From Bacteroidota bacterium (GTDB taxonomy: Bacteria; Bacteroidota; Bacteroidia; JACCXN01), in contig JACCXN010000032.1 of NCBI GenBank assembly GCA_013696965.1, forward strand, positions 1 through 64,000: a stretch of 64,000 nucleotides of DNA. Direction: 5' to 3'. Made by a program: the position numbers and the translations under genes. A model generated the notes under the pieces. It saw only the letters and a list, made by a program, of their open reading frames with translations, did not search any database and was not told where the DNA came from. Position 1 is the first letter of the stretch. Every line of letters starts with the position of its first letter. Below, in pieces: positions 6,581 through 60,502 of the stretch.

Positions 6581-9500
6581 TTATTCTTCTTTTTGTTCCT
6601 CAGAATTCTCCAGTTTCCTCAAAAATTGATTCTTTTTAGAAACGGTAGAGATGATATATTGAAAAGGAGCCTCTCCTTTCACGTTTTTATATTTTCTCTT
6701 ATCTGATTTTACTTCTTTAATAATTTTATTAAACTCTTCATTAGATGACAATGCCTGCATTACATTTCTTTGATAGCTAAAGAAATACCATTCCCCTGCA
6801 CCCAAATCCAAATACAAATTCATTATGTCTCCTCCTCGCTTTTTAACTATTTCAATATTACCGTCAAATACCCTGTTAATTTGCGTTTTGTATATGTTTC
6901 CAATTCCAATTTGACCAATTGACCGGTAAGATCTTAAGTTCTCTTCCCATCGGAATTTCACATCCGTAAAGAAAATAGTATGATTTAAATCTGATGGAAA
7001 TTTCCTGTAGGATCCACCATATAAATTCAATTCTGAAATTAATTTATCCGCACTCTCCTTGCCCAATAATTCTCTCATGCTTTTTTCAAATACCAGCCTT
7101 GAATAATCCACTGGTTGAGCAGAAGCGCTTTTTTGCATACGCTCTGCCATTTTTTCCATTGCAGATTCTTCGAAGAAAAAATTCATCGGAAAAATCACAT
7201 CGAAAAGCACAAGGTTATCATTCAAATTATGTGTGGAATATCCAGCCGGTTTTACTGTAATATTTCCTAAATCAACACCTAAATCCATATTACCTTCACC
7301 ATAAAACTTACAGTCATTGATGTTTAATGAAATGTAATTTCCTGTGAGCATATTTTCCTTGAGTTTTTCCCTATTTGAAATTCGGTATTCCTTGGATGCT
7401 TTATCATAAAACAGGAACCCATCTGCACCTATAACATTAATATCCTTAGGTGAAAGTTTTTTAGAAAGGTATGAAGAATAAATACCAACAGAATCATTGG
7501 CAAGTAAAAGGCCACTAGCTAATTTATAATTATCCTCATTTACGGGCTGCTGTGCAACAGGAATATAAATTTCCATTGGATCAATTTCAGCATTAAACTT
7601 CATCCAGTTTCGGGAAAGCATTTCACAACCATGAATAATGCGTGAAGTTCCATCAAAGCTTAGGTGTTGCTTTGTTGCCTCCAGTTTTACATTTCCTGTA
7701 AATTCGAAATAAGGACTTAATTTAAAGGCTATTGCATCTTCAATGATACCTTCGGCAGAAGTTTGGCCAGTAGTATCAGGCGAAATTTCATTAAAATGGA
7801 TAGTTTGAATAACCTTATTCTCATCTACATAATCGTAATCACCAGAAGCTGTATATTTTCGCTTTCCCTCAACATTTACTGTAGAATTGTAAAGGGTATG
7901 GTACTGAGTAATGTAATTTGCTTTTATTTTAGCGTTTTCCAATGTTCGCATTTTAGCTTTTTTCTCAACTACAACCTCTCCATCTCCTGGATAAATCATG
8001 GCATCAGCTACATTAAAATATTTAACCTGTGAGGAGTAAATTACATTTTCCTTTAAATCGTACCTAGTTTTAGGTGAAAAATAAGACAAAGAATCCTGTT
8101 TTGGGTGAATGGAAATAAATTGTGATCCTGTTAAATCCAAATCACTACTTCCTGGGTCATTTGCCTGGCTTTTGCCTCCGGTTAATTCGATATCATTTTT
8201 ATCCATTAACCATGTAAACTGATCCATAAAACACACGTACTGGTTGGAAGGGAATTCCATTAAAGATCCACCTCCATTTGAAATAAACTTAGCTTTCCTT
8301 TCAGCAAAATTTACATGTGCATTTACATTAATTGTTTTAAGAGCGAACTCAGCGGAAGATAAGCTGGCTAATCTAAAATCAGCCGTGTCAGAGAAAAATT
8401 CATTGAATTTATATTTATATTCTTTTGCATCCATTTCAGCATTGTTAAAAGTCATTAAACCCTCGCCTGTAAGACCTGAGGGTTCAAGAAACAATTTACC
8501 ATGAGATTCTGCCTGACCATTAAACATTACAAGAGGATTGTTTCGCTTTTCTACTTCCATTATATCTTTAAAAGGCATAAAATGCATATAAGCCCCGGCG
8601 GCGGCAACTGCTGGATATTCCACTCCGCTATTTCTCTCAGCAATAGTATATTGGTTCATTAAAGCATTGGTAGAATCAGGATAAAATATAAAATTATTCG
8701 AATGAGCCTTGGAGGTTATGTAATTCAATGTTCCGTCTCCTTTTAATCCCTCATGACTCATTTTAATGTCATTTTCGAAAACAGCCTTATTTCCATAAAC
8801 AGGATACCCTCCCGGAGGTGCTTTTCTAATAAAACCTAGAGAATAATCTGCTTGTAGAGTTAAATCTTCCTGAAAATCAGGGAAAATTCCTGCTGAAACA
8901 AAAAGACCTTTAAATCTAAGGGATGCATTTTCAAATGAGTTAAGGCTGTCAATAGTAAAAGGGTCTACCTTAAAATAAAATTTCTCCTTATTGTACGCTC
9001 CCATTTGTATGGATGGACTGTTATAATAAACAAAAGACTCTTTACGACTGTTTAAAACAGGATAATTTGCAAGTGATTTCAACCCTGATTTATTTTTTGG
9101 ACCATCAATAAGTAAATCTCCCTGTATATCTTCAATTACAGTTTTCACTCTTATCATTGGCTGTCTACCGTATTCATCTTTTTGTCCAACTTTTACTTTA
9201 ATACTTAAAGAATCAACTGCAATAAGATTAATTTTAAAGGTTTCATATTCAAAGGAAAATTGCTTTCCGTAAAAATCGAAAAGTCCAGCATTAACAACAC
9301 CTCCAAAAATAAAATCACGGTTTTTCTTTAATGTTATTTCTCTTTTTGAGGGTTGAATAAATACATTTTGTGAATCACTTAGAAAAATCTGACTAACTCC
9401 TCTTATGGTAAGATCGTAGTTTAAAAGATTCAGTGTAGCATTGGCTTTTCCCGATATATCTGAATTAAATTCAATTACATCGTAATCCCTCTTTTCGGCA

Positions 9501-11056
9501 TTTGCATCCAGATACCAAAAAAGCTTGTCCTTTATAATTACAAGTTGTCTTTCAATATCATATTGCAAGAAACCTTGATTGGCAAGGTTTAGCAGCATAG
9601 GTGAGACTTGGCTCATTGGAAGGCGCATGTGGCTTACTATGTCCTCAGCCATTATTTCTCTTGATTGGAATTTTTTAGAAACTTCCCTAATTAACACCAG
9701 TGGATGAACAGCATCCATACCCAGTATTTTTTGATAAAGACTATAGGAGTAATAATTGGAAGATTCAAAACGAGCATAGGTTTGAGTACTTCCTTTTATA
9801 ACCCCCATATTCATTAGAGGTTCATCAATTTTCCAGTTTATTACCTCAACATCCATATCTATACTATGAAATGTATTGAAATACGGACTTTTAGCAATTC
9901 CTTTATCATCACGGTATAGTACCAGTTCCCTCTCCTTTGTTAAAAGTTTCATATTTAGACCGGGATGGAAAATGGAATCGTTTTCAAGAAAAACGGTTAT
10001 GGAGGCACGGTCAGAGGTAATTCTTTCTTGTCGAATTACAAATACTTTTGATTCTGCTACCAAAAAAGGATTGTCATTTCGATAGAAAATTAGCATTGCA
10101 TTTTCCTGGTCACTACCCATACCAATAAATTTGGGACCCACCATGGAAAATCCACCATCATAATTAACGCCATCAATAATATTTTTTATTAAAAACCTCT
10201 TGTGGTAAGAATCAAAACGCGGATAGGTTGCGTTATTTTCGTTAACATTTGCTTTAACTTTATCTTGAAGTTTGCCTAAAATCGGTTTAGAAAAATATTG
10301 ACTATTATAAAATGATACAGAATCAGCAGTATAAGCTGCTGTTTTTAATCCAATTTCATATTTATTTAATTCTGCATGAATTTCGTTTTCAGGAAAACCT
10401 GCCCTAACCCAATTAACCTTTCCTCCTTTTCCAATCCATTTATCTTCCAAGGGGTATAAAATACCTGAAGTTCCATAAATAACGGTGCTATCATCCTTTG
10501 ATTCGCATTTAAGATTAAGTGAAGGAAAAACAACATAAGGCAAACTATCGTATTCGAAAATATAATTGTTATTGTCTGAATACCATGTAACATTGGATGT
10601 TTTGTAAATTATATTGGATGAAAATATATTTTCGCTAAAGGCAAGAAAATCAACGAAACGCTTGCTGGTTGATTTTTCAATTATCTTCTCAAGGCTTCTC
10701 TGCCAGGCTTCAAAACTTTCAACTGATTGTTTAGCATCGAGAAAATTTATCATTGTTGAGAGGTAATTTTTAAAATCGGGAAAAGGCTTCATCCTCTTCT
10801 TAAGCATAATATTGCAGGTTTTGTAAATTACCTGCTTATCAGCTTCTGAAAAACGACCGGAGTAAAAAACAGGAATAAATTCCTTTAACATGAATTCCTC
10901 TCCCTCTTTTTTTCTAGCTGAAATAAAAAAATCTGATAACTCTGATACAAAAGTTATAGAGTCAGGGGTAAAGCTCTTGAGGTTTTGAGCATTAACATGT
11001 GTCCCAAACAAAGCAAAAAAAGAAAAAAGCGGAAAAATAAATTTCAGAAATTTCAT
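6581..11056 (-). CDS. Very large exported protein of unknown function
   Basis: About 1491 residues. The N-terminus MKFLKFIFPLFSFFALFG up to VNAQ is a clear signal peptide, so the protein is exported. Residues ~30-150 look helical. Most of the rest is rich in beta-strand patterns with repeated segments about fields such as EGIIEDAIAFKLSPYFEF, loosely recalling OstA/LptA or AsmA-type beta stacks; that is a guess. Around residues 455-520 a helical block (REVSKKFQSREIMAEDIVSHM onward in shorter pieces) resembles a winged helix, which is odd in an exported protein. I do not recognise a family. The ATG at 11056, 9 nt after the prmA stop, is preferred to a TTG three codons upstream. Tight spacing to prmA and plsY suggests one operon and an envelope role. 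Confidence 0.85.
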   Translation of the reverse strand: MKFLKFIFPLFSFFALFGTHVNAQNLKSFTPDSITFVSELSDFFISARKKEGEEFMLKEFIPVFYSGRFSEADKQVIYKTCNIMLKKRMKPFPDFKNYLSTMINFLDAKQSVESFEAWQRSLEKIIEKSTSKRFVDFLAFSENIFSSNIIYKTSNVTWYSDNNNYIFEYDSLPYVVFPSLNLKCESKDDSTVIYGTSGILYPLEDKWIGKGGKVNWVRAGFPENEIHAELNKYEIGLKTAAYTADSVSFYNSQYFSKPILGKLQDKVKANVNENNATYPRFDSYHKRFLIKNIIDGVNYDGGFSMVGPKFIGMGSDQENAMLIFYRNDNPFLVAESKVFVIRQERITSDRASITVFLENDSIFHPGLNMKLLTKERELVLYRDDKGIAKSPYFNTFHSIDMDVEVINWKIDEPLMNMGVIKGSTQTYARFESSNYYSYSLYQKILGMDAVHPLVLIREVSKKFQSREIMAEDIVSHMRLPMSQVSPMLLNLANQGFLQYDIERQLVIIKDKLFWYLDANAEKRDYDVIEFNSDISGKANATLNLLNYDLTIRGVSQIFLSDSQNVFIQPSKREITLKKNRDFIFGGVVNAGLFDFYGKQFSFEYETFKINLIAVDSLSIKVKVGQKDEYGRQPMIRVKTVIEDIQGDLLIDGPKNKSGLKSLANYPVLNSRKESFVYYNSPSIQMGAYNKEKFYFKVDPFTIDSLNSFENASLRFKGLFVSAGIFPDFQEDLTLQADYSLGFIRKAPPGGYPVYGNKAVFENDIKMSHEGLKGDGTLNYITSKAHSNNFIFYPDSTNALMNQYTIAERNSGVEYPAVAAAGAYMHFMPFKDIMEVEKRNNPLVMFNGQAESHGKLFLEPSGLTGEGLMTFNNAEMDAKEYKYKFNEFFSDTADFRLASLSSAEFALKTINVNAHVNFAERKAKFISNGGGSLMEFPSNQYVCFMDQFTWLMDKNDIELTGGKSQANDPGSSDLDLTGSQFISIHPKQDSLSYFSPKTRYDLKENVIYSSQVKYFNVADAMIYPGDGEVVVEKKAKMRTLENAKIKANYITQYHTLYNSTVNVEGKRKYTASGDYDYVDENKVIQTIHFNEISPDTTGQTSAEGIIEDAIAFKLSPYFEFTGNVKLEATKQHLSFDGTSRIIHGCEMLSRNWMKFNAEIDPMEIYIPVAQQPVNEDNYKLASGLLLANDSVGIYSSYLSKKLSPKDINVIGADGFLFYDKASKEYRISNREKLKENMLTGNYISLNINDCKFYGEGNMDLGVDLGNITVKPAGYSTHNLNDNLVLFDVIFPMNFFFEESAMEKMAERMQKSASAQPVDYSRLVFEKSMRELLGKESADKLISELNLYGGSYRKFPSDLNHTIFFTDVKFRWEENLRSYRSIGQIGIGNIYKTQINRVFDGNIEIVKKRGGDIMNLYLDLGAGEWYFFSYQRNVMQALSSNEEFNKIIKEVKSDKRKYKNVKGEAPFQYIISTVSKKNQFLRKLENSEEQKEE

Positions 11057-11065
11057 AATTGGCAA

Positions 11066-18739: not shown

Positions 18740-20565
18740 TTTAATTCTCCTTCCAATTTTGCAATCACCTCTGTTGTATCTGAATAAACAGTTTTAACTG
18801 AAATATCAGTTACGGGCGCAAACCTTGCCATTTCACAAAGATCTATTGTTAGGGCAACCTTGTCAATTATGGGTTCCGAAATATTTTTGTTTTTTAAATG
18901 CAGTGTTATATTATCCTTATTTAACATTGTTACTGGCATATTAAACTTATCACCAAAATAACCATAAAGTGCTTTGAAAATTTCATTGTAAAACTGGGAT
19001 TCATTATTTGTTTCAAGATGTTTTTTGGCCAATTCTAAACGCTTTATTGCAATTTTCGTGGCTTTCTTGGATTTCACAAGCACCAGGTTGCTATTCACTT
19101 TTACATACCTTTTCCTGGCAATAATAAAACCAACAAAGAGGAAAATTGGAAGTGCAAGTAAAATATAGAAAAAAGAGGATCCAAAAAAGAAACTTCCCTT
19201 AAAAGTAAATTCAGGAGTATGTGTATTTATGTACCTGATATCGTTACCTACAGTTTTTATATCTTCTTGTCTTTTACCAGATACTATTATTCCCCCATCA
19301 TCCTCTTTTGCAGCTTTTTCAACTTGAATTTCAAAAGGCCCAGTTGTAAGCGTTTTGTATGATTTTAAAACCGGGTCGAAATAACTGAATTGTATTGGTT
19401 CAATAGTAAAGGTTCCAGAATGGCGGGGAATCATTAAAAATTCGAAGGATTTTGTCCCTGAAACACCGGAGGAAGAAATTGATGTTTTATCTTTTAATTG
19501 TGGATCATAAACCTCAACATCAACAGGAAATACAGGAGCAGGAGTTTCCATTAATGGTAAATTACCTTTACCAGAAATGTTCAAAAAAAGGTTTACTGCT
19601 TCATGCGCTCTAACCTTATTCTTATCCAAACGGGCTTCAACTGAAAATTTCCCTACCGCTCCTTTAAAATCAATTGGCTTTCCATTTTCAGGAAGTGGAA
19701 GCACTTGAATATTAAGAAGCTTACTTGAAACGGTATATTTAGCATCCTCGAAGGTACCAAAAAACTGATCAAATACAGATTGGCTACGTTTGTTGGAACG
19801 GGAACGAACAATACAATCAAGGGATAAAGGATCGATTTCAAGAGTTCCGCTACGTTGTGCAAATAATACAAACTTTCTAATTTCTGCAACATTATAGCTA
19901 ACACCATCAAGTACCTCAGCTTGAAAGTGGATATTTCCTCCATTGTTATCTTCAATTAACTCTGACCAAAAACCATTTAAAGCAGGTAATTTATTAAAAC
20001 CAAGATTTACAAGATTTACACGATGGTATAATTTAAAACTAAGAATAACCTGTTCTCCAACAAAAGGATTTGTTTTATCCACTGAAACTTTTAAAAAGAG
20101 ATTTTTACTTAAATCCTCCTCCGTAATTTGCTGTTGTTGTTGCTGCTGTTGTTGTTGCCTTGCATTTTGTTGTTGCAATTGCTGTTGTTGTTGCTGTTGG
20201 GCACTTGGTTTTACTACTTCAATGGTAAGTGCATTGCTTTGAAGGAGCTGATTGTTTGATTTTATTGTAGCAGGAGGAATGTTAAAAACGCCTTCTTTAC
20301 TTGCTAAAAGAACAAAAGAAAAGGAATGTTTTTGAGAAACTGCCCCATTAATCCATTGCGTACTAGTGGATTGATTTGGTCCTCCAACAATCCTGAAATC
20401 AGTAAATTGTGGTGGCCTAAATTCTGAACCATGAGCATCAATGGTAAAGGATACAGTAATTGTTTCACCTACAGCAACTTTAGCCCTGCTTGTTGTTGCA
20501 GTGAATTCGGTTGCAAATAAAATGTTAGTCAGAAAACAACTAAATAGTATAAAAAAAAGCTTCAT
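18736..20565 (-). CDS. batD: BatD, exported oxygen-tolerance protein with a polyglutamine tract
   Basis: A 609-residue protein with a signal peptide (residues 1-19), several beta-sandwich domains in the periplasm, a transmembrane helix around 452-472 and a C-terminal cytoplasmic segment. The N-terminal AKVAVGETITVSF and the later VDKTNPFVGEQVILSFKLY segments are typical of BatD/oxygen tolerance proteins. Residues ~122-146 form a glutamine-rich tract (runs of 7, 3 and 10 Gln) encoded by mixed CAA/CAG codons, between the first two domains, so it is probably a flexible linker. It overlaps batE by 4 nt and follows batC. Frame and domain structure are intact. Confidence 0.9.
   Translation of the reverse strand: MKLFFILFSCFLTNILFATEFTATTSRAKVAVGETITVSFTIDAHGSEFRPPQFTDFRIVGGPNQSTSTQWINGAVSQKHSFSFVLLASKEGVFNIPPATIKSNNQLLQSNALTIEVVKPSAQQQQQQQLQQQNARQQQQQQQQQQITEEDLSKNLFLKVSVDKTNPFVGEQVILSFKLYHRVNLVNLGFNKLPALNGFWSELIEDNNGGNIHFQAEVLDGVSYNVAEIRKFVLFAQRSGTLEIDPLSLDCIVRSRSNKRSQSVFDQFFGTFEDAKYTVSSKLLNIQVLPLPENGKPIDFKGAVGKFSVEARLDKNKVRAHEAVNLFLNISGKGNLPLMETPAPVFPVDVEVYDPQLKDKTSISSSGVSGTKSFEFLMIPRHSGTFTIEPIQFSYFDPVLKSYKTLTTGPFEIQVEKAAKEDDGGIIVSGKRQEDIKTVGNDIRYINTHTPEFTFKGSFFFGSSFFYILLALPIFLFVGFIIARKRYVKVNSNLVLVKSKKATKIAIKRLELAKKHLETNNESQFYNEIFKALYGYFGDKFNMPVTMLNKDNITLHLKNKNISEPIIDKVALTIDLCEMARFAPVTDISVKTVYSDTTEVIAKLEGELK
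20128..20200. repeat. CAA/CAG microsatellite in batD
   Basis: On the plus strand the region is a near-continuous TTG/CTG triplet repeat interrupted once by CTTGCATTT, giving the Gln tract of BatD. Triplet slippage would change the linker length by whole residues without breaking the frame. Confidence 0.8.
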
Positions 20566-20619: not shown

Positions 20620-21336
20620 TTACCAATCTTTCTCAATATCAACTCCTACAGTTGTTTTTTGTTTTTTAAGTTTTTCCTGGATATTTTTATCTTCTCTTTC
20701 CATAGCTTCTAAAAGTCTTTGGGCTTCCTCCCTTGACATTTGATCTTTAGGTTTTTGCGGTTCCTTTTGTTGATCCTTCTGGTCCTGGTTTTTTTTGTCT
20801 TCTTTTTTTTCTTCTTTCTTGTCTTTTTTCTCTTCCTCTTTTTTGTCTTCTTTTTTGTCTTCTTTTTTGTCCTCTTTTTTGTCTTCGTTTTTATTCTCCT
20901 GCTCTTGTTGTTGCTTTAATTTTTGCATTGCATAAGCCAAATTATACCTTGCCTGATCATCATCCGGTTGATTTCTTAAAGCATTTTTATATGCATCAAT
21001 ACTTTCCTCGTATTTCTCGGCCTTTAAAAGCGAGTTGCCAAGGTTATGAAATGCTTTGGCCTTAATTGGTTTATCTGGTGCTGTTTGTGTAAGGGTTTTA
21101 AATTGAGCTGCTGCTTCTTCGTATTTTTCTTGCTTATAAAGGGAATTTCCCAGGTTAAAGGCTCCATTAAAGGAATTATTGTTCTCATCCACAGCACGTA
21201 AATAATTGGTTTGAGCTTCTGAAAATTCTCCTTTTTCGTATTGCTTGTTACCTTCGCGGATAAGCTTGTTCTCCTTTTGGGCATAAGCCTTTAACGAAAA
21301 TAAAAGGGCCAGGATTATATAAAATAGTGTTCTCAT
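20620..21336 (-). CDS. batC: BatC, TPR protein with a charged C-terminal tail
   Basis: A 238-residue exported or membrane-tethered TPR protein. A signal sequence (MRTLFYIILALLFSLKAYAQ) precedes about three TPR units covering residues ~25-140 (KQYEKGEFSEAQTNYLRAV, then AFNLGNSLYKQEKYEEAAAQ, AFHNLGNSLLKAEKYEESID). A highly charged Lys/Glu/Asp tract follows (~145-195), partly built from a 12-bp DNA repeat coding KKED. The end, from SREEAQRLLEAMEREDKNIQ, is conserved in BatC proteins. It lies between batB (ATGA-type overlap of 4 nt) and batD. TPRs suggest a scaffold for the Bat complex. Confidence 0.88.
   Translation of the reverse strand: MRTLFYIILALLFSLKAYAQKENKLIREGNKQYEKGEFSEAQTNYLRAVDENNNSFNGAFNLGNSLYKQEKYEEAAAQFKTLTQTAPDKPIKAKAFHNLGNSLLKAEKYEESIDAYKNALRNQPDDDQARYNLAYAMQKLKQQQEQENKNEDKKEDKKEDKKEDKKEEEKKDKKEEKKEDKKNQDQKDQQKEPQKPKDQMSREEAQRLLEAMEREDKNIQEKLKKQKTTVGVDIEKDW
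20822..20889. repeat. 12-bp tandem repeat coding KKED in batC
   Basis: On the plus strand the unit GTCTTCTTTTTT recurs about five times with single-base changes, coding repeated Lys-Lys-Glu-Asp on the minus strand. Unit length is a multiple of three, so copy number changes keep the frame. Confidence 0.7.
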
Positions 21337-26502: not shown

Positions 26503-26543
26503 TCAGAAGAAAAAAATGATTTTTTTTCAGTTTTTTCTTCTGA
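26503..26543. repeat. 13-bp perfect inverted repeat upstream of moxR
   Basis: TCAGAAGAAAAAA (26503-26515) is exactly repeated in reverse complement at 26531-26543, with a 15-nt T-rich loop. It abuts the left end of the MITE-like element and could be the remains of an insertion boundary, an operator or a weak terminator. Confidence 0.6.
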
Positions 26544-26674
26544 TGTCCGGTAAAAGTTTTTTAGATTCCTCGCTACGCTTGGAATGACAGGCATTTCAAA
26601 ACATATTCCTCACTTTCAATGTCATTTCGAATGAACGCAGTGTAGTGAGGAATCTTTCCTATTTTACCGGACAT
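26543..26674. mobile_element. 132-bp palindromic MITE-like element
   Basis: ATGTCCGGTAAAA (26543-26555) and its exact reverse complement (26662-26674) form 13-bp terminal inverted repeats. Inside, a second pair of arms (GATTCCTC at 26564-26571, GAGGAATC at 26647-26654) extends the palindrome, and both arms carry GGAATGACA/CATTTCGAATG-type sequence. AATGATTTTTTT(T)C occurs at 26515-26528 and again at 26676-26688, resembling a target duplication. There is no coding capacity. A shorter relative lies at 704-748. Mobility is inferred only. Confidence 0.55.
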
Positions 26675-26741: not shown

Positions 26742-27258
26742 TTTGAATAGTCATGCTCAATATAAAATATATAAAACATGACTTTACCATTTGACAATTA
26801 AAATAACAAAATATCTACAAATGAAATAATCATATACAAACCCATATATATATAACATGACTATCCAGATTATTCGGAATTACAATTGAAACACGATTTA
26901 TATACCTATGAAATAGCCATGCACGAACCGTTCACAAACGCTAATGAATATAACATGGCTATCCCGATAAATCGGGATGACTATTAAAAAACAAATTATA
27001 TACATATGAAATAGCCATGCACCAAACGTGCGCAAACACTAATGAATATAACCTGGCGTCCCGATAAATCGGGATGACAACTAAAAAAACAAATGCTTTA
27101 GCATTCTTGAGTTCCTTAAAGAAAGGAAAAATTAAAAACGAATAAATTATCTACATATGAAATAGCCATGCACGAACCGTTCACAAACGCTAATGAATAT
27201 AACATGGCTATCCCGATAAATCGGGATGACCTTAAAAAAACAAATTATATACATATGA
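26742..27258. repeat. Array of a ~90-100 bp double-hairpin repeat (array 1)
   Basis: Three well-conserved units begin at 26910, 27008 and 27159; two degenerate units precede them (about 26742 and 26824). The unit core reads GAAATAGCCATGCACGAACC, then TTCACAAACGCTAATGAATA, then TAACATGGCTATCCCG. It holds two hairpins: ATAGCCATG/CATGGCTAT (26913-26921 with 26954-26962; 27162-27170 with 27203-27211) and TCCCGAT-AA-ATCGGGA (26962-26977). Between units 2 and 3 lies a ~53-bp insert with an AATGC-TTTA-GCATT hairpin. A matching inverted array is at 59985-60290. The gene-free stretch 26399-27327 otherwise holds only the items above. Confidence 0.85.
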
Positions 27259-27327
27259 AAATTTACTGTCAAAAAAATTCCAATCAATTATTATTTGCCG
27301 TACATTTAATGAAAATTTTATAGCTTC

Positions 27328-27903
27328 ATGTATTTAAATTTCCATCGTTTTTTATTGTTTTTTGCTTTTTCTACATTTATTTATTCCTGTTCAAGCCCGA
27401 TATTCACTCAAAGAAAATACTTTTTTGGGTCTTATAATGCCAATAATGTTACTTTATGTAACACAGAGGCTGGAAGTGAAGAAACAGCAAAAGAAAAAAT
27501 CAAGCAAAAAGCAAATGCAGAAACAGAAAAAACACTGTTAGACCTTCAGGCAATAAAAACTAAGGAGCCTTTAATGGGATACAAGAAAGGCCTGGAGTTG
27601 GTTGCTTGCTTAAATTCAGAAACTGTTTTTAAAAATCTGCATAGTTCCACTGAAAATATTCATATAAAAGAGAAAAAAAAGTCTCAGGCAATAAACATGT
27701 ATATCCATACAGATTCAAGTCCTGCTCTTGATTTTCTTCAAAAACCAAAAGAAAAGAATGCTTCTATAATGGATATATTAGAATTAACTTCATTCATGTT
27801 TATTTTTGCTTCCATAGTATTGCTTCTTTTTTCTAACATTCTTTGGGTTTTCTTTGGTGTTGCAGCCGTTGTCCTTTTTATTCTAGTGCAAATTATTTGG
27901 TAG
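27328..27903 (+). CDS. Lipoprotein-like membrane protein, unknown function
   Basis: A 191-residue protein. The N-terminal hydrophobic segment ends in a lipobox-like FIYSC, so it is probably lipid-modified. A polar middle region (residues ~25-145) rich in Lys and Glu follows, then two adjacent hydrophobic helices at ~152-190 (SFMFIFASIVLLLFSNILW and FFGVAAVVLFILVQIIW) ending at the C-terminus. C-terminal hydrophobic pairs of this type are common in small Bacteroidota lipoproteins of unknown role. It is preceded by the repeat array and converges with the DUF3365 gene, overlapping it by 11 nt. I do not recognise a family. Confidence 0.7.
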   Translation: MYLNFHRFLLFFAFSTFIYSCSSPIFTQRKYFFGSYNANNVTLCNTEAGSEETAKEKIKQKANAETEKTLLDLQAIKTKEPLMGYKKGLELVACLNSETVFKNLHSSTENIHIKEKKKSQAINMYIHTDSSPALDFLQKPKEKNASIMDILELTSFMFIFASIVLLLFSNILWVFFGVAAVVLFILVQIIW

Positions 27904-58833: not shown

Positions 58834-59967
58834 CTAATTAATTATTACAGCTTTAACAACTTTTACAAAATCAGCAAAATACAGGCAATAATAATAAACT
58901 CCACTCTGCAAATTTTCAGCCATCCATTGCACTTCATACTTTCCAAATGTAATGTTTTCACTTAAAAGTGTAGTAATTTCCTTTCCATATAAGTTATATA
59001 CTTTTAGTTCAGCGAATCCTGTTGAGGGGGATACAAATGAAATTCGTGTAGAAATTTTAAAAGGATTGGGGAAATTTTTAAGTTCAATTTCAGGTTTTAG
59101 TTGTTTCGTATTAATGTCTTCCGTGTTTTTATTAATTGAATAATAATCAATTAAAGAATCTGCTCTATTTATAAACATAAAAACTATGCTGTCATTATTT
59201 GCCACTACTTTCATTGCTCCATAATCCTGATTATATTGCACAAGGCTTTCTGGAATAATGTCAACAAATGCTCTTTTACCGTGTCCTCCCAATCCATTCA
59301 CCATGTATGTTAAACCATTAACAAAAATGCGTTCATAATTATGAGAATGCCCTGTAAGTACTGCAGTTGCTCCCCATTCAACAAAGGGCCACTGCAATCG
59401 AGGCTGGCTACGGTGATATTCCTCGGAAGTATATGGAGACTCGTGAAAATAAACAATTTTCCAGGGAGAAATTGAAGATTCCAAAGCATTTTTTAGCCAT
59501 TGACCTTGAACAGAAGCACTTGAATCACCATCAATTTCAGTTGTATCGCTATTAAGAGCAAAAAAATGAACATCACCCCAAACAAAATCATAATAACGTT
59601 CATTACCGGGCAGAGTAAAATAATCAAAATAAGGCTTTCCATCTGCTGTTCTAACATCATGATTCCCTAATGTAGGAAAAAACCTGTTTATAGTACCTCC
59701 TAGACCATAAGTGCCTTTATAGGGATAAATATATTCATGAAAATACTTTCCTATATTTTTATCAATTGTTAATGAATCCCCTCCCTGGTAATTATTATCG
59801 CCAACAGTAATAATTAAATCTGGGTTCCAGCTTTTCATTAAATTGGAGACATCCAGTTGTGGTATTTTATCAACACCGTAATCGCCTATTACCCCAAAGG
59901 TTTGCCCTAAAATGTTTTGTGATAAGAAAAAAACAGCAACTAGATACATTGATATTGTTTTCTTCAT
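58834..59967 (-). CDS. Type IX secreted metallophosphoesterase (purple acid phosphatase type)
   Basis: A 377-residue secreted phosphatase. Signal peptide MKKTISMYLVAVFFLSQNI to ILGQ. The calcineurin-like domain has GVIGDYGVDK, ITVGDNNYQGG, TLGNHDVRT, the HES motif in VYFHESPYTS and LTGHSHNYERI, close to the PAP/ACP5 type. The last ~85 residues form a type IX sorting domain (NFPNPFKISTRISF, ELKVYNLYGKEI, GKYEVQWMAENLQSGVYYY). All metal ligands appear present. It is probably surface-bound or released and may take part in phosphate scavenging. Repeat array 2 lies just upstream of its start. Confidence 0.92.
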   Translation of the reverse strand: MKKTISMYLVAVFFLSQNILGQTFGVIGDYGVDKIPQLDVSNLMKSWNPDLIITVGDNNYQGGDSLTIDKNIGKYFHEYIYPYKGTYGLGGTINRFFPTLGNHDVRTADGKPYFDYFTLPGNERYYDFVWGDVHFFALNSDTTEIDGDSSASVQGQWLKNALESSISPWKIVYFHESPYTSEEYHRSQPRLQWPFVEWGATAVLTGHSHNYERIFVNGLTYMVNGLGGHGKRAFVDIIPESLVQYNQDYGAMKVVANNDSIVFMFINRADSLIDYYSINKNTEDINTKQLKPEIELKNFPNPFKISTRISFVSPSTGFAELKVYNLYGKEITTLLSENITFGKYEVQWMAENLQSGVYYYCLYFADFVKVVKAVIIN

Positions 59968-59984
59968 ATGTAAATAATTTATTC

Positions 59985-60290
59985 GTTTTTTATTTTTCCT
60001 CTAAGGAACTCATGAATGCTAAATGCATTTGTCTTTTTAATTGTTATCACAAATTTATCGGAAGCAATGTTATATTCATTTGTGTTTGTGAACGGTTCGT
60101 GCATGGCTATTTCATATGTATATAATTTGTTTTTTTAGTTGTCATATGGAATACGCCAGGTTATCTTCATTAGTGTTTGTGAACGGTTCGTGCATGGCTA
60201 TTTCATATATATTTAATTTATTCGTTTGTAATATGGTATAGCCATGTTGTATTCATTTGTGTTTGCGGGGTGGTAGGTGCATGGCTAAAT
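59985..60290. repeat. Inverted array of the double-hairpin repeat (array 2)
   Basis: Three units in the orientation opposite to array 1, with their GCATGGCTA arms at 60101, 60192 and 60279. Reverse complementing gives the same core as array 1 (GAAATAGCCATGCACGAACC, TTCACAAACGCTAATGAATA). The left edge (about 59985-60040) also matches the insert of array 1, including an AATGC...GCATT hairpin and the GTTCCTTAAAG-like segment. The third unit is more divergent (GGGGTGGTAGG loop). The conserved TCCCGAT/ATCGGGA hairpin is degraded here. Confidence 0.85.
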
Positions 60291-60502
60291 TATCTCACAG
60301 GTTATAGTTTATAAAAATTTAGCTGAAAAATTGTTTGAAATTGTCTATGTTACTTGTTAATATTTTTGCATTTTTATTTTAAATAATCTTGCCATTATTC
60401 AATGGCCTACTTTATTGGATTTTCATTTGCTTCTTGGTGATAAAAATGAAATAATTTCCACTAAATGAGCATTAAATTCCCCCCTAATGGATCAACTAAT
60501 CA

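Follow-up and report, generated by a model that had tools for sequence, protein, structure and literature searches.

A probable non-autonomous mobile element that inserts at start codons and supplies a replacement start in Bacteroidia

Introduction

What kind of sequence forms the short tandem array in the middle of a 64,000-nucleotide stretch of a Bacteroidota genome (contig JACCXN010000032.1, positions 1 to 64,000; hereafter the window), and what maintains its hairpins? An earlier note had described here a repeat unit with two conserved hairpins, possibly an unnamed mobile or RNA-forming element under selection for structure, and had pointed to REP/BIME elements and their RAYT transposases. 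In this study, we have examined the units of the array, their copies in the same genome and their relatives in other Bacteroidia, and we have asked where they insert, which parts of them covary and which enzyme could move them.

Results

The array in the window

The array consists of five head-to-tail units at window positions 26742-27260, two worn and three good, with ATGAA boundaries at 26821, 26908, 27006, 27157 and 27255. A second array lies on the minus strand.

26742..26826, plus strand: degenerate unit with guide CCATTTG (26787-26793), which pairs with the right end CAAATG, a T-A version of helix 2 (see below)
26821..26913, plus strand: second degenerate unit
26908..27011, plus strand: unit 1, ATGAAATAGCCATG..CATGGCTAT, then TCCCGATAAATCGGGA, an AT-rich leader and a terminal ATGAAA (arms 26913-26921 and 26954-26962; TCCCGATAAATCGGGA 26962-26977; ATGAAA 27006-27011)
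27006..27162, plus strand: unit 2, with a GCAC/GTGC tip, a worn right arm and a long spacer containing AATGCTTTAGCATT
27157..27260, plus strand: unit 3, 96% identical to unit 1
59962..60293, minus strand: second array of the same element, three units, of which the last closes with the ATG that starts the next ORF
58834..59967, minus strand: that ORF, encoding a secreted metallophosphoesterase-like protein of 377 aa; the second array ends with its start ATG at 59967

All units open with ATGAAATAG, which reads Met-Lys-stop, and close with ATACATATGAAA or ..AAACAAATTATATACATATGAAA. The arms ATAGCCATG/CATGGCTAT followed by TCCCGATAAATCGGGA are present exactly as first described in units 1 (26908-27011) and 3 (27157-27260), and the claim that the arms are kept across units is correct for these two and fails for unit 2, in which the right arm is degenerate (CCTGGCG for CATGGCTAT). 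The GCAC/GTGC tip of unit 2, whose spacer is 50 bp longer than in units 1 and 3, is real and is seen again in other copies; the inner GAAC-C-GTTC hairpin cannot close as written, a 1-nt loop being sterically impossible. RNA fold z-scores of units 1-3 were -2.6, -3.2 and -3.3, which indicates structure beyond chance. As the terminal ATG of unit 3 (27255) opens 22 codons only and the next ORF begins at 27328, the array at 26742-27260 is an exception in not standing at the start of a long ORF. The ATGAAATAG start, the ATACATATGAAA end, the minus-strand array at about 59962-60293, the insertion at ATGAA and the reconstitution of start codons are all features that the earlier note did not contain.

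The window also holds a separate inverted-repeat element at 26543-26674, just upstream of the array, with arms TGTCCGGTAAAA..TTTTACCGGACA and, inside them, AGATTCCTCGCTACGCT / AGTGTAGTGAGGAATCT. Two tandem repeats, at 20128-20199 and 20791-20892 (periods 12/18 bp and 12 bp), lie within predicted minus-strand ORFs, and a 1494-aa ORF at 6581-11065 has no Pfam match at E 0.001.

Copy number and distribution

The genome of the window (3.86 Mb, 106 contigs) contains about 150 copies of the element. Left ends numbered 158 against 5 for a reversed-pattern control and right ends 134 against 0, while BLAST gave at least 101 matches (40 of 138 candidates scored); because many contigs end in arrays, the copy number is a lower bound. 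Each unit spans one ATGAA to the next in a single orientation, usually over 90-104 bp and up to about 150. The repeat is thus real and the family much larger than first described, and these further copies agree with the proposal of an unnamed mobile element. The second hairpin TCCCGATAAATCGGGA, formerly counted as part of the core, occurs in 56 of the 118 classified units of this genome (a regular-expression count, therefore approximate), where it mostly replaces the CCATATG guide segment, and is absent from most relatives, some copies of which carry other palindromes in that region. It is a substitution and no defining part of the element. Other palindromes, CCCGATAGCTATCGGG, ATCCGCCAACTGGCGGAT, GAGCTTGCGAGCTC and TCCGATAAATCGGA, were likewise seen swapped into fixed element positions, in one locus of contig C61 (L068) and in the Sphingobacterium loci L216, L217, L223 and L226.

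An exact 21-mer scan of GTDB genomes matched Sphingobacterium, Algoriphagus, Pedobacter, Fluviicola, Dysgonomonadaceae and others. S. tabacisoli, S. faecale and S. paucimobilis hold more than 50 matches each. As the 21-mer scan was ascertained on the right end, the independent evidence of kinship is the conserved TTCCATATGAC.. segment and the left part, which are not in every 21-mer match. With a covariance model trained on 24 diverse units, and with no more than 14 candidates per genome scored, we found members of the family in 47 of 295 Bacteroidia genomes or, by genus, in 25 of 156. A blastn search of plasmid and phage collections with a Sphingobacterium unit gave no match, nor did one of the plasmid collection with a unit from the window; in IMG/VR nothing matched the full right-end pattern, and the single contig with the 21-mer lacks the remaining element. 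We found no description of such an element in the open-access literature, and on this basis we provisionally regard it as new.

Insertion site and evidence of mobility

Insertion occurs immediately 3' of (A/G)TGAA, in one orientation and without true target-site duplication. Three copies lie inside coding genes, each inserted exactly after (A/G)TGAA, and taking the element out brings back the frame. The interrupted Y1 transposase gene of L038 reads ..AATAAATGAA, then the element, then ATTATGG.., and its joined flanks encode 225 aa that align without gaps to an intact paralogue in L037. In L103, a gene that we read from its sequence as SpoIIE/PP2C-like holds two insertions, and joining restores 215 aa. 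One of these insertions has GTGAA as its native left copy and ATGAA on the right, which shows that the right copy there is the element's own and not a target duplication. The base at -1 of the left flank is T in 29 of 32 independent flanks, against a background of 25%. At dozens of loci, unrelated flanking sequence starts precisely at ATGAA, identical copies are found at different genes and loci in S. tabacisoli, and the same insertion is shared between Sphingobacterium species (L137/L156). It is very probable that this is a mobile DNA element that inserts at start codons and replaces them. Since the element ends in its own ..CAN'ATGAA, it offers a site for further head-to-tail insertion, by which tandem arrays can be built.

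Start codons and downstream genes

Start codons are the most frequent of the resolved sites: the old ATG is left as a two-codon Met-Lys-stop, and the AT-rich leader with ATGAA at the 3' end of the element supplies a new in-frame start. Of 47 resolved sites, 31 yield, once the flanks are joined into the empty site, an ORF of 50 codons or more (or one that runs past the contig end), and resolved start sites have an in-frame upstream stop nearby. Start sites accounted for 22 of 30 insertions, against 86 of 255 background T[A/G]TGAA hexamers in a noncoding sample (p=4e-5); the eight non-start noncoding insertions in this comparison come from our own reading of ten non-start rows, two of which are in genes, and the definition of a background start was lenient, which makes the test conservative. 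This enrichment may reflect selection after random insertion instead of targeting.

The genes opened by the terminal ATG in other genomes include GAPDH, gcvT, queA and ridA. Pfam domains start at residues 1-8 in nine downstream proteins (Maf, FAH, M61, GAPDH, GcvT, RidA, QueA, Usp and the pre-ATP-grasp domain of PurT), so that these are true N-termini. A further start-codon-tied repeat family was noticed on contig C94 of the window's genome (L031, 1340-2400), where the 5' leader and first codons of a Y1 gene are repeated downstream and each repeat copy ends at ATG again.

Two helices maintained by compensatory change

Helix 1 is the outer stem just inside the left end, in which the arm after ATGA pairs with the arm preceding TTCCAT. 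It exists as AATAGCC/GGCTAT, AATATCC/GGATATT, AATACTC/GAGTATT, AATGTCC/GGACATT, AATGCCC/GGGCATT, AACCGGT/ACCGGTT and AATCTTTATGC/GCATGAAGATT. In helix 2 the internal CATNTG pairs with CAN'ATG at the 3' end, a stretch that takes in the start codon. The covariation score was 0.197 in A1 (shuffled 0.083±0.012; slid at most 0.054) and 0.369 in A2, with 69 matches from newly fetched loci (shuffled 0.108±0.010; slid at most 0.047), rows of the same genome being related in both and A2 being fitted to the model; helix 2 is 97.5% paired in A2. The N/N' position takes all four Watson-Crick pairs (GC 21, CG 20, AU 19, UA 4) and is Watson-Crick in 45 of 52 copies found by raw-sequence pattern alone. Seven genomes hold at least two N/N' types, so the pair change has happened repeatedly. 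Both helices are therefore maintained by compensatory change, and the selection on structure that had been suggested is borne out by covariation above the shuffled background. The N/N' pair is kept in 16 of 16 copies that do not precede ORFs, against 49 of 53 that do; this equality favours a role in mobility, with regulation still possible. We rejected the idea that the guide base N sets the choice of target, as the left -1 base showed no correspondence with N in other genomes.

Search for the mobilising enzyme

The window's genome has 12 Y1 genes, and PF01797 (Y1) is present in 40 of 47 carriers and in 162 of 248 non-carriers, a weak association (p=0.006). It is absent, among others, from the carriers S. 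tabacisoli, S. faecale, S. micropteri and the near-complete G222 (coded absentees G061, G062, G063 and G222). None of 11 Y1 loci of the window's genome and 21 of other carriers has element ends on both sides. In L038 and L165 the element is inserted into or in front of Y1 genes; L165 was considered as an autonomous Y1 copy and reads instead as an insertion at the start codon of that gene. At the same locus (1-1250, from a Dysgonomonadaceae MAG), the element-fronted Y1 gene stands beside partial copies of its flanking sequence in which the gene has been deleted.

Other enzyme classes were rejected on their distribution. IS91/Helitron-like mobility does not fit because the Y2 domain PF04986 is missing from some carriers, occurring in only 22 of 295 genomes and not in that of the window. 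RVT_1 is lacking in carriers (G000, G222, G164, G258, G061, G062), the window's genome included, which speaks against a retroelement, and PF02371 is absent from 9 of 14 carriers, the window's genome among them, which speaks against an IS110 or bridge-RNA element. Among the unpaired Sphingobacterium left ends that were fetched, none formed an autonomous copy, with a gene enclosed by a left and a right end; those that were read have extra hairpins in the loop or leader.

Discussion

The explanation as a whole, a non-autonomous mobile family which inserts at start codons and brings a replacement start, is in our view probable. Such an element may move as a folded single strand, with an enzyme supplied in trans, and the internal CATNTG would mark the right end by pairing, comparable to the guide/cleavage-site logic of IS200/IS605 ends. 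By this analogy a single-strand, IS200/IS605-like mechanism is conceivable, with the balance tilting somewhat against it. Insertions at start codons would persist because the gene stays translatable, and those within genes would mostly be purged. In mRNA, helix 2 would cover the start codon, and many host genes may thereby have gained a translational control element. About half of the units of the window's genome have exchanged the CATNTG guide for TCCCGATAAATCGGGA, so the guide is perhaps dispensable for mobility, or those units are immobile. A bolder and rather doubtful version would place the element in a separate kind of mobilisation system, widespread in Bacteroidia and consisting of a folded single strand of some 90 nt, an internal segment pairing alternately with the left junction and the right end, an unrecognised enzyme, and a start-codon landing that time and again gives unrelated genes the same start-codon-covering leader.

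The same structure could also be seen primarily as a mobile cis-regulatory RNA, whose copies are kept for shared translational control because helix 2 covers the start codon of the mRNA. The almost complete pairing of a helix that contains the start codon, the position before diverse housekeeping genes and the insertion conserved between Sphingobacterium species would all fit; we nevertheless hold this to be unlikely, as N/N' is equally kept away from ORFs, half of the units in the window's genome have no guide and the downstream genes have no obvious common function. Somewhat less likely again is a REP/BIME-like repeat moved by a RAYT or by some other Y1 transposase of IS200/IS605 type that the genome encodes. 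Hairpins, a single-strand type of insertion beside a fixed short target with a target copy at the right end, the 12 Y1 genes and their weak class-wide association would agree with this, but Y1-free carriers hold many, partly identical copies, no examined Y1 locus is flanked by element ends and there is no GTAG foot, so the RAYT link first suggested finds no support here. A purely local origin by tandem duplication of 5' leaders, with no mobility involved, to which the near homogeneity of some arrays (L229, L138) could be ascribed, is highly improbable: subtypes are mixed within arrays, unrelated flanks start exactly at ATGAA, and the three clean in-gene insertions effectively refute it. The absence of further copies and of covariation, which would have spoken against mobility and structure altogether, is decisively contradicted by our results.

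If a start-codon-replacing mobile family is the right reading, such an element can spread in gene-dense genomes with little damage and can alter the translation of many genes at once. For annotation, many 5' leaders of Bacteroidia would be element-derived; for assembly, it matters that arrays terminate so many contigs of the window's genome. Because CATNTG pairs so strictly with the start-codon region, it can be tested directly whether helix 2 serves as a signal for transposition, as a translational switch or in both ways.

Among known systems, the IS200/IS605 family (TnpA Y1; e.g. IS608, ISDra2) is alike in inserting 3' of a fixed short target without target-site duplication, in a right end that closes in a copy of the target/cleavage site, and in subterminal hairpins. 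In the ends of this family, a guide base-pairs with the cleavage site (PMC6006769). In our element CATNTG and CAN'ATG covary through all four Watson-Crick pairs, which may be a comparable interaction, but the geometry differs: a 6-bp antiparallel helix at a distance of about 23 nt here, a tetranucleotide at the foot of a hairpin in the known guides. The element has no internal transposase gene, targets start codons and has PF01797-free carriers. REP, BIME and REPIN sequences are likewise short, high-copy, non-coding palindromic repeats that are often clustered, but ours has one orientation, start-codon sites instead of sites between genes, and no linked RAYT. Nor is the GT[AG]G of the REP hairpin foot (PMC6006769) found at the foot here, which reads ATGAAATAGCC / ATGAAATATCC and variants; with Y1-free carriers, this led us to reject RAYT/REP. 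BrickBuilt of Porphyromonas gingivalis, in the same phylum, is a MITE (PMC4596501), and MITEs share with our element the form of short non-autonomous repeats. They differ in having terminal inverted repeats and target-site duplications, and a MITE was rejected because the two ends, TAGCC.. and ..ATACAT, do not form inverted repeats and one site has GTGAA on the left and ATGAA on the right.

In Rfam, the repeat scores above no gathering threshold, the sole gathering match (DUF805b, L233) lying elsewhere; at a relaxed E-value, the array gave only snoR09 and RalA, far below threshold. HEARO and IscB-associated elements are reported to integrate at ATGA or GTGA, which the (A/G)TGAA target resembles; our element has no IscB-type ORF inside, no Rfam HEARO match and only about 90 bp. 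Finally, Rickettsia palindromic elements are also short and inserted so that genes survive, but they are translated inside proteins, whereas the element described here rebuilds the start codon of the gene that it enters.
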